Made by a program: the position numbers and the translations under genes. A DNA stretch of 33,354 nucleotides from Leptolyngbyaceae cyanobacterium CRU_2_3 (lineage in GTDB: Bacteria; Cyanobacteriota; Cyanobacteriia; Elainellales; Elainellaceae), in contig JAAUOQ010000003.1 in assembly GCA_012034795.1 (NCBI GenBank), forward strand, positions 1-33,354, in the 5' to 3' direction. The notes below the pieces were generated by a model. The model saw only the letters and a list, made by a program, of their open reading frames with translations, ran no database searches and had not been told where the DNA came from. Of this stretch, positions 9,579 to 21,198 are shown one piece after another (within the stretch, counting starts at the first letter, position 1; every line of letters starts with the position of its first letter).

Positions 9579-12500
9579 TTATCCGACATTATAGATAGCG
9601 GATAAGATTCCCGACTCTGTCTGATTGCCAATCGTTATCGATCGCAACAGTTCAAACTGCCACTGATGGAGAAACGGATCAGCCTGTGTACAGAGTGCGT
9701 GCAATTGTCCAATCTGACAAATTGCCGAGGCTGCTTTTTGCGGATGAGCTTGAAACCACTGGGCTAGAGGATGCTGCCAGTGTTGTAAGAACTCTTGGAT
9801 AATTTGCCGATCGCGCAGGCTAACTGGACCAGCCATAACGGTGTAATAGCGATCGCCATCGGGTACAAGATTACTGCTGCTCAAGGTTTCTGCTAAGAGA
9901 GCCTGCCACTCCACAGTTAGTAGGGGTGGTAGCATCGCCAATGTGTATTTTTTTCTGGCTTTGAGGGCGATGCCACCAACGACAGTTTCGCCACTTGCCT
10001 GTAAAAATAAATAGATCTGCTTGAAAAAAGGCTGGACGATTTCTCGCTCGATCGCCAATCCCAGCTTTAATCCCGCTTCGGAATAATCCACGACTGAAGC
10101 GGTGAAGGCTTCAGACTGGATAGTATTTAGGCTTTTGTAAGCAGCAGTCAAATCGCGCTGGCTAGAAGGCGTTAGATGAGTCCAAACGGCTTCGCCTAAT
10201 TGAGCTTTCAAGTAACGTTTAATTTCTTCTGGTTTGGTAGGAGTAGTGGGCGATCGCAGAGCAGCAATTTCGGTTTCATGAGTGGCGATCGTGGCTTCCT
10301 GCTCTAGTAGCTGAATTTGCAAAGTCTGCAATGCTTTGGGCGGAGCAAAAGCAGGCTGGTTGGGCTGCTGATGCTGGCTGGACTGCTGGTTCAGCAGATC
10401 CAATTGTTGGTGCAGCATAGCGATTTGCCGATCTTTTTCAACTAATAGCTGCTCTTGGATTTGCAAAAGCTGCCTTTTTTCAGCCAGATCTAAGGCAGAG
10501 AGAGCCATCCGAATTAAGTTGAAATAGTGAGACTGTGAGACATCAATTGCCTTAGCATCTACTCGGCGCTTTCCCAACCAGCCCTGCCGTTGCTGAGGCT
10601 GAACTACCAGCACCTGACCCTCTGAATTGCGGATTCTTAACTCTTTGGATGGGGCGATTGAGTGAATGCTGGCAATATACTGGCGCTTGTTGTAGTAGAA
10701 CTCGACTCTGTCAGCAGGGCTGGCGTTTGGCTCGATAACATCTAGGCTAAAGCAGGACAAGTCGGCAGGCAATGCTAAATCACCACGCAACGCTAAATCA
10801 CTACGCGACGCTATATCAGCCTTCTTTTCAAGCGACAGACTCGTTTGCCGTTTTGGGGAACGGGCTGACGAATTGACTAACTTTTCTTCTAAAGTAACAA
10901 AGCTAGAGCGGTTCTCTTGAGCGATAAAATTTTGGGCTACAAAATTGGGATTAGCGCGCTCCCCGTTTTGCGACGGAGATCTTGGAGGGATCTCAGCCGT
11001 CTCCTTAGCAATGGGTTGGATAAACTGAGCCGATCGCATGCCCACAATTTCCAGCTCAACAGATTTAACCCCATTCCATTCATTCAAACGAAGACGATAA
11101 GCAATGTCTACTAACTGAGGCAGGGGATAATACTCACCCCAACGCCAAACGATCGCCTTAATAGAGATAGGCGGTGAGAATGCAGAGTTTTGAGCATTGA
11201 CGTTTACAGCTTCCGAACCCGCAGTTTGCGCTTGGGTGACGCTCAGCTTCAGGTGGGCCCGATTTTTGCCCATTGTCTGCTGTTCCACAATTCGGACATT
11301 GGGCGTCCAGAACACCGGGTCAGAGTTTTCAATGCCGCAGGGATGGAGGCGATCGATCTGCTCAAACAGTTCTAGGGTTAGTTCGGCTAAATTAGCCTGG
11401 GCATCAATGGTGACTAGCGGCTTTAAGCAGTCGGGTTGAAGGGTTTGATGGGCAAATTCATGCAGGCGCGATCGCACTGCCTCCAAATTCTCTGCCTTGA
11501 ACGTAAAGCCACCTGCTGCTCGGTGTCCGCCAAATCGCTCCAGCAGATCGCTGCAATAATTCAACCCATCAAAGACATTAAATTCTGGAATGCCTCGTGC
11601 TGAGCCGCGAATCATCACAGGTGGGCTGACGGGCGAACTTGCGGCTATATCCAGTGTAGGACTCCCACCCTCTGCTGTTGCCGCTTCTCCTTCATAGGTG
11701 CCTATGAATACCGGAACACCATACCGCTCGACTAGGCGAGAGGCAACAATGCCAATCACACCGTGGTGCCATTCTGGTTGAACAATCACCAGAACTCTTT
11801 CGTGTTGTCCGTTGAACTGAGTGTGTTCGCACCAGGCGATTGCTTCTTGCTCAATCAATTCACACAGGCGTTGCCGATATTGGTTGACCTGTTCACACTT
11901 CATGGCTAGCTCTAGCGCCTGCCCATTGTCATTAGTGGTCAATAGCTCAATCACAATTTGTGGATCGGCAAGGCGACCGATCGCATTAATCCGGGGGCCC
12001 AACCGAAACCCGATCGCCTCTGGCTTCAGGGCTTGCTCATGGCTCAGCCCTGCCACTTGAATTAACGCCTGGATGCCTGCAATCCGAGATTTGGGCAACA
12101 GCTTTAGCCCTCGCTTCACCCAACGCCGGTTGACTCCCGTGAGGGGAGCCAGGTCGGCAATCGTTCCCAATGTAAATAGTTCAATCAGCGGCGTTGTTAA
12201 ATCTTGAGTTTTGCTAAGGCATTGGGCCAGGCAGACTGCCAGGATGTAGGCAACTCCCACCCCGGCTACACCACGATAGGGCGAATCTTCGCGAATCAGT
12301 TTGGGATTGAGAATGGCATTAGCGAGCGGCAACACGGCTGGGATGTCGTGGTGATCGGTGACAATCACCATTAGCCCCAGTTCTCTGGCTCTGGCAATTG
12401 GCTCAACAGCAGCAATGCCGTTATCCACTGTGAGAATTAGCTGCACGCCTTCTTCATAAAACTCTTCAACAATTCGCCGATTGATGCCATAACCTTCTTG

Positions 12501-12877
12501 CATTCGACTGGGAATCGCATAATCGACGATCGCTCCCAAAACCGCAAAGCCCGCAACAACAGAGCGGTGCTAGTCATCCCATCTGCGTCATAGTCACCAC
12601 AAATAGCGATCGGCTGACGATTGGCGATCGCATTCAGCATGATCTCTAGAGCCACTGGCAGATCAGGAAACTCTTCCAGTGGCGAGGGCAAAATCTGCGT
12701 TTCTGGCTTCAGAAACGTTTGGGCAGTCTCAAAACTACCCATGCCGCGATTAATTAACACCTGTGCTAGCAAAGGTGGCAACTGCATCGTTTGCGCTAGC
12801 TGAGCAGCATGGTCAGGGTTGGCTGGCGCAATTCGCCAACGCTGTTGAGGAAAACGAGAAGAAGGAGAAGAAGACAC
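9579..12877 (-). CDS. recJ: Single-stranded-DNA exonuclease RecJ with long C-terminal extension (one frameshift)
   Basis: After repair this is a protein of about 1099 residues. The RecJ core has motif I (CGDYDADGMTSTALLL), the DHH motif (VTDHHDIPAVLP), DHHA1 features (FGGHRAAGGF) and an OB-type segment. RecJ degrades single-stranded DNA 5' to 3' in recombination and repair. A T/A run (12538-12541) is one base short: ALRF should continue LGAIVDYAIPSRM, so the gene appears as two overlapping frames. The core ends near residue 620. About 470 more residues follow: a linker, a coiled coil (about 793-859, Gln-rich) and a helical domain (AQLGEAVWTHLTPSSQRDLT ... LKLGLAIEREIVQPFF). This extension is absent from E. 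coli RecJ. The start is GTG at 12877. Confidence 0.93.
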
Positions 12878-20920: not shown

Positions 20921-21198
20921 TACCGCCAATTACATATAGACGTTCTGTCTCCAACTAAACTCAGCAGAGTTGCAGCCAAATCTCGTAGCTCTCAGTGTCA
21001 TTACGTACAGTTTGGAACAGATCTCAAAAGGTTTTAAAAAAAAATCAGTAGACTCATCGAAGATTAATCAGAAGAAGTAGCTGAATAAAATCGAGGTAAA
21101 GTTTCCCGATCAGATTCAAAGGTCAAATAATTAGAACCTTAACTGTTAGACGATCAACTAGATAGTCAACAGCTAGAGCAACTGTAGAAGATTGACAA

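Follow-up and report, generated by a model that had tools for sequence, protein, structure and literature searches.

What is the long segment that follows the OB domain of RecJ in Leptolyngbyaceae cyanobacterium CRU_2_3, and what might it do for the exonuclease? The window, i.e., the whole 33,354-nucleotide stretch of DNA that was analysed, carries the main recJ ORF of 986 aa on the minus strand at positions 9579–12539, its TTG start being the ORF tool's mechanical choice. In Pfam, RecJ_OB ends at residue 498 of this ORF, and the remainder matches no Pfam family at E up to 1, so that about 488 residues lie beyond OB. A preliminary description had put the extension at roughly 470 residues, close to this figure, and had held that standard RecJ proteins end earlier. 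The accessible text of PMC4663267 bears this out for E. coli-type RecJ, which ends after OB; the scans reported here cover cyanobacteria. NCBIfam gave a single meaningless match to the tail, on the coil (E 0.51), and PDB sequence searches gave nothing significant, the best hit being a transposase (E 0.11). A known defence or phage gene was rejected as an identity for the tail, as the padloc and phrogs matches are weak and mostly on the coil.

Four parts make up the tail, all on the minus strand: a variable linker, a domain that we call A, a coiled coil and, at the end, a domain of about 215 residues (the last domain). The linker (10710..11045) shows identity of 0.25–0.33 and is weakly constrained. 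Domain A (10545..10709) is followed by the coil, formed by Q-rich helices (10257..10532; helices 82–134 and 146–173 of the model). The last domain (9582..10232) is, by alignment and models, a HEPN-like helical domain whose catalytic motif is lost. The linker, Gln-rich coil and helical region with conserved motifs of the preliminary description are thus all present, and both of its motifs fall within conserved helices of the last domain. That outline stands; the HEPN likeness, the frequency of domain A, a frame break in recJ and the A9 runs of relatives, described below, were not part of it.

A disordered tail is excluded by the models and by conservation. In the AlphaFold model, which covers 398 aa of the window tail (mean pLDDT 84.8), 28 of these residues fall below pLDDT 50, mainly residues 1–18 and 137–145; most of the linker lies outside the modelled part. 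Nor is this an ordinary RecJ tail, as the HEPN part occurs in 109 of 388 genomes and domain A on many but not all cyanobacterial RecJ proteins.

Domain A is predicted to be a small beta domain of six strands, polo-box-like in the model, and it is the terminal domain of many cyanobacterial RecJs. Its polo-box likeness reaches Z 6–7.5 (VIA-align, window model). As an observation on its surroundings, domain A precedes a coiled coil as XRCC4-type heads do, and XRCC4/XLF likeness also appears among the candidates. The polo-box or XRCC4/XLF likeness is a lead and could be a chance resemblance of small beta domains. A match of domain A to phrog_15896 (Mu Gam-like; E 0.019) is likewise taken as a lead.

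The core and tail share the 986-aa ORF, but the N-terminus does not belong to it. The RecJ core, with DHH, DHHA1 and OB (Pfam), spans 11046..12539, whereas the N-terminal part with the first DHH motif is read in another frame (12540..12877, within the ORF at 12437–12877; both minus strand). The NCBIfam recJ model covers its positions 2–79 in one frame and resumes at 82 in the next. RecJ membership by DHH, DHHA1 and OB is therefore found with both Pfam and NCBIfam but is divided between two frames, and the main frame alone scores 378 bits against the equivalog cut-off of 397. The break point is a T run at 12538..12541 (minus strand) that is one base short compared with relatives; none of the relatives displayed in the comparison lacks this T, and in the relatives fetched recJ is mostly one open frame at this place. 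A separate break nearby in the recJ of another genome (G042, locus L064) is an additional G within a G run. A programmed frameshift at the window break was rejected because the window and G042 share no signal. The window assembly is 69% complete in 533 contigs, so that both assembly error and genuine mutation are possible; in the latter case the frame-broken recJ may be a pseudogene.

Some further observations concern recJ in this class of bacteria. Two RecJs, RecJec and RecJcy, are described for many cyanobacteria in the available text of PMC5101192. The window's own genome has a second RecJ paralogue of 32% identity (G000 contig C241, 537–1814), which has counterparts in other genomes searched. 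One member of the class (G036; 1.7 Mb, stated to be 100% complete) gave no match to the RecJ core.

How widespread is the tail? The tail query matched in 47 of 60 genomes searched, own genome included. A profile of the last domain, A1, built on 28 rows, found it in 109 of the 388 genomes sampled from the class. Within the window's family it was present in 27 of 36; the search of the window's order returned the identical 36 genomes. Named carriers, taken from 21 loci, include Phormidium tenue FACHB-886, Drouetiella hepatica, Elainella saxicola and Oscillatoriales USR001. In many cyanobacteria RecJ ends in domain A alone, with ORFs of about 670–830 aa; where RecJ, A and the last domain are joined, complete ORFs run to about 930–1230 aa. 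Several RecJs of the class have different tails or none. Among the latter arrangements, RecJ of G055 stops right after OB (595 aa), with an A+HEPN gene about 21 kb distant. In G274, RecJ ends in A (667 aa) and A+HEPN is additionally present as a gene of its own (L210 281–1654 and L247). By sequence comparison, the HEPN module is attached behind domain A in several families. It also occurs as a separate protein, as the preliminary description had suggested looking for: 21 stand-alone A+HEPN copies were found in other cyanobacteria.

The genomes of family f24 that were examined carry a RecJ tail of another type, about 170–193 aa and without domain A. Several of them (G058, G136, G167, G191, G202) have recJ split near core residue 256 by about 1.6–2.2 kb; in G058 the insert (L243 2290–6345) contains a Uma2-type ORF and a DUF4145 domain reading in frame into DHHA1-OB. 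Other members of the genus of these genomes have recJ as a single open frame of 817–860 aa.

The assignment of the last domain to HEPN begins with two predicted models, made from window and related-locus sequences only: the window tail and the USR001 protein (308 aa, mean pLDDT 84.4). Ten-residue blocks of the last domain with pLDDT of at least 90 number 14 of 23 in the USR001 model and 18 of 22 in the window model. Foldseek alone found no significant match for either model (best E 0.54 for USR001 and 0.23 for the window). When the Foldseek candidates were realigned with VIA-align, RnlA came top for both. For the window model, rows 1–4 are RnlA (Z 9.5–9.7, 137–154 residues, model about 171–397), and the rows beyond the fourth concern domain A and the coil. 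For the USR001 model, rows 1–7 are RnlA or LsoA (Z 9.5–10.0, 138–147 residues), all reaching model residue 308, from 81–82 in six and from 3 in one. The lower USR001 rows are mostly coil, and several extend into the last domain by its first helices (up to about residue 142); two APP E2 rows (3umk, 4yn0) reach 308 at rmsd 10.6–11.0. The fold call thus comes from predicted models, in which RnlA is top twice at Z 9.5–10.0, and helical folds score easily; by the tool's own warning, helical bundles may reach Z near 10 through shared arrangement. The RnlA match therefore needs sequence evidence.

Such evidence is found in the motif. HEPN domains carry R-x4-6-H with a polar residue after R (PMC3710099, part of the text). 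R-N-x3-H stands at one aligned place in 6 of the 28 A1 rows, which is consistent with that motif. Pfam was also scanned with 20 of the 42 members with an intact motif, picked for spread. The most-matched families were HEPN_Swt1 (4 of 20, best E 0.029), HEPN_RiboL-PSP (3 of 20, 0.046) and Abi_2 (2 of 20, 0.0032). All HEPN-family matches are below cut-off; ten further families matched one intact member each (E from 0.011), and unrelated ones score equally well. With the 28 A1 rows, Pfam gave Abi_2 in two and twelve single matches. An HHalign comparison with cyanobacterial Swt1-HEPN gave weak matches (probability 1.1 and 2.6); when the six intact rows were used, it was the RN..AH motif that aligned. 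No sequence-profile match to HEPN rises above cut-off; those seen are sub-threshold and come from relatives. To summarize, the structure prediction gives a folded tail, the last domain of which appears nearest to the RnlA HEPN.

The state of the motif was scored in 107 sequences, i.e., those of the last-domain genomes plus USR001, minus G066, G075 and G300, whose matches are split or short. R-x4-H is intact in 42 of 107; the residue after R is N in 41 and D in one. An Asp six residues ahead of R is kept in 42 of 42 intact rows versus 22 of 65 others. The intact motif is unevenly spread: all 21 stand-alone A+HEPN copies have it, as do 3 of the 5 copies in which the HEPN ORF is apart from A (G296, among these three, being a stand-alone gene with a stop inside), 1 of 5 copies cut by contig ends, and 17 of 76 RecJ-fused copies. 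The other 59 fused copies, the window included, are without the full motif. In the window the degenerate stretch lies at 9684..9719 (minus strand), where alignments place C, H and Q against D, R and H of intact relatives; the HEPN signature is thus absent, H...Q being found instead, and the window's close relatives G002, G003 and G020 have likewise lost it. On a tree computed without the motif columns, the motif state changes 11 times (bootstrap 10–12), at least 9 of these forced by supported branches. For the fused versus free state the count is 3 changes. All stand-alone copies cluster together with USR001 and G296 (23 rows, SH-aLRT 97, quick tree); being a single clade, they do not make 21 independent cases.

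The domain itself is nonetheless conserved. At least 90% of the 28 rows, the window among them, share W12, S19, Q20, L23, L52, R58, E59 and F65. Between the window and Drouetiella, codon positions 1/2/3 differ by 0.28/0.22/0.55 in the HEPN domain and by 0.62/0.47/0.76 in the linker. The window HEPN domain is constrained and, on this comparison of sequences, kept under selection despite its lost active site. HEPN families without the motif are still classed as HEPN in the portion of PMC3710099 at hand.

We propose that the tail combines domain A and a coiled coil with a member of the HEPN superfamily, whose fold is that of metal-independent RNases like RnlA, and we consider this account the probable one. 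In the window lineage the active site would have decayed and the domain been retained under selection. Coiled coils and HEPN domains often form dimers. Since the window copy has both and the RNase motif is lost (H...Q) while the domain is conserved, the copy may be read as a pseudo-RNase serving dimerisation or docking of RecJ. Most likely it brings RecJ molecules together in pairs by way of the coiled coil and the HEPN bundle; alternatively, it might tie RecJ to an RNA or protein partner. The preliminary description had offered dimerisation or a partner at the replication fork. Dimerisation or partner binding agrees with our best reading, whereas nothing points to the replication fork. In lineages with intact R-x4-H, the module is probably a real endoribonuclease, either free or tethered to RecJ.

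Could the last domain instead be a helical bundle unrelated to HEPN, or a functionless filler in decay? That the Foldseek search alone was insignificant, that the HEPN family matches fall below cut-off and that the motif residues were lost many times would fit such an origin. The constrained codon positions, the residues invariant across divergent genomes, R-N-x3-H with its co-kept Asp and the first place of RnlA from two models argue against it, and we regard it as improbable. A more serious contender keeps the HEPN assignment and makes the module a regulated effector. Here RecJ would hold a HEPN RNase that is freed or activated on damaged or foreign DNA, as in RloC, a repair-like protein that bears a HEPN tRNase, and the motif-less fused copies would be retired effectors. 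The motif counts are in keeping with this (21 of 21 stand-alone, 17 of 76 fused), but in 59 of the 76 fused copies, among them that of the window, the full motif is missing. The literature lends it some plausibility: RNases that act in defence and conflict are numerous among HEPN domains (PMC3710099, in part), RecJ deletion in Synechocystis raises gene transfer by transformation (accessible text of PMC10667661), and the paralogue RecJcy restricts RSF1010 plasmids in S. elongatus (accessible text of PMC10653904). The gene neighbourhoods are mixed. Among 8 neighbouring proteins from 4 genomes there is no clear repair or defence operon; however, the gene immediately upstream of G058's stand-alone copy is of Uma2 type, a putative restriction endonuclease. 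The remaining neighbours look like housekeeping: an AMP-binding enzyme, YlqD and a B12/radical SAM protein in G144, a TPR protein in G085, and MarC, YflT and ABC proteins in G055. A tblastn search of plasmids with two homologues gave no matches, and the PADLOC matches lie mainly on the coil. Taken together, we think the effector account rather unlikely, and a dimerising or docking tail in the window preferable.

A further proposal concerns relatives rather than the window and is compatible with the other readings. It is that slippage at a run of nine A by RNA polymerase (or the ribosome) yields both RecJ-A and RecJ-A-coil-HEPN from one gene. Within 270 nt spanning the end of domain A in 121 A-bearing ORFs, A9 is present in 8, A7 in 7, and no run of at least seven in 106. 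The A9 begins 7–30 nt past domain A. In four genes (USR001, G015, G006, G024) the parts are out of frame: the RecJ-A and HEPN ORFs overlap and meet at A9 then G, the HEPN frame is recognisable as coil starting at KKK, and all four need a −1 shift or one added A for continuation. In the other four (G011, G012, G014, G018) the A9 lies at nearly the same place but in frame, and adding or removing one A leads to a stop after 2–16 codons. The runs occupy three slightly different codons and so probably have more than one origin.

Such runs are rare. Across 120 loci (714,525 nt), A/T runs of nine number 7, with no longer run; these loci contain 7 of the 8 junction runs, which thus account for every run of nine there. 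Counting both strands, exact A9 occurs 9 times in the genome of G006, 4 in G011, 8 in G012, 8 in G014, 6 in G015, 13 in G018 and 11 in G024, i.e., 4–13 in seven of the eight, and 38 times in USR001. From these counts, the chance of A9 in a given 40-nt sense stretch is near 1.5e-5 to 4e-5 (1.3e-4 in USR001), related genomes not being independent trials.

Several points weigh on the other side. The run is absent from 113 of 121 ORFs and from the window, where the matching site (10475..10480, minus strand) is only A6. The window does have an A9 elsewhere, on the plus strand at 21036, between listed ORFs. Homopolymer assembly errors are possible, and start codons precede HEPN in all four out-of-frame genes: in three the first start codon of the HEPN frame is codon 44, 59 or 60 (33–40 codons past the run), and in the fourth (L046) it is beside the run. 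Separate initiation is therefore possible, which weakens the two-isoform and recoding readings alike. RNA folding after the run gave z −0.42 to −1.84 in four stretches; with no clear stimulator, a structured −1 ribosomal frameshift was rejected, and we favour, as a proposal, slippage during transcription. On balance, the production of two isoforms from the A9 genes has, in our judgement, close to an even chance. The broader idea is that cyanobacterial recJ is a recoding gene like dnaX, in which a selected A9 would give RecJ without and with a HEPN ribonuclease arm at a set ratio. Lineages would then fix the arm, as in the window, free it as an RNase gene of its own, or keep the switch. We put this forward tentatively, as possible but somewhat doubtful. 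Among the open-access papers listed in literature searches, judged by titles and the starts of abstracts, there was no report of RecJ slippage or of a RecJ-HEPN fusion; the word RecJ is absent from the main text of the GeneTack survey (PMC3711429) and from the accessible part of PMC5009743.

If these readings are correct, the core 5′–3′ ssDNA exonuclease is linked to an RNase fold whose known examples come mostly from phage defence and RNA processing. The intact, dead, fused and free copies would then be a natural series for the study of the HEPN arm, and the junction run would offer a candidate site for recoding within a bacterial repair gene.

Several known systems resemble parts of this arrangement. 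The nearest solved fold to the last domain is the HEPN domain of RnlA and LsoA (RNase LS), and R-x4-H is present in intact relatives; identity, however, is 8–13%, and the domain is here fused to RecJ or domain A. The RnlA alignments start at chain residue about 189–203, except for one row (7aex) starting at 94; in place of the N-terminal domains of RnlA, it is the coiled coil, domain A and RecJ that precede HEPN here. The Swt1-like, RiboL-PSP and Abi2 HEPN families are reached from intact members through weak Pfam matches below cut-off. Fusion of HEPN to nucleic-acid enzymes is common: Table 1 of PMC3710099 includes many, among them a cyanobacterial RNase III, while RecJ does not appear in that table as seen in the available text, and RloC is described there as a HEPN RNase.

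For the junction run, the models are cases of transcriptional slippage; A9 slips efficiently in bacteria (PMC1088944 and PMC5009743, both in part). Thermus dnaX has an in-frame A9 with stops near in both other frames, giving a short and a long product (gamma and tau), and in Shigella mxiE slippage joins out-of-frame ORFs (same sources). By comparison, the gene here is recJ and the predicted switch, which belongs to relatives and not to the window, is a HEPN tail. As for tails on RecJ itself, Deinococcus-Thermus RecJ has an extra C-terminal domain IV after OB, required in vivo and interacting with HerA; the accessible text of PMC4663267 gives it no defined homologue. Finally, the RecJ3/4-aRNase J complex of Haloferax (PMC10470531, in part) consists of separate proteins, with archaeal RecJ and an RNase J rather than a HEPN protein, but it is a case in which RecJ-type proteins are physically joined with an RNase.
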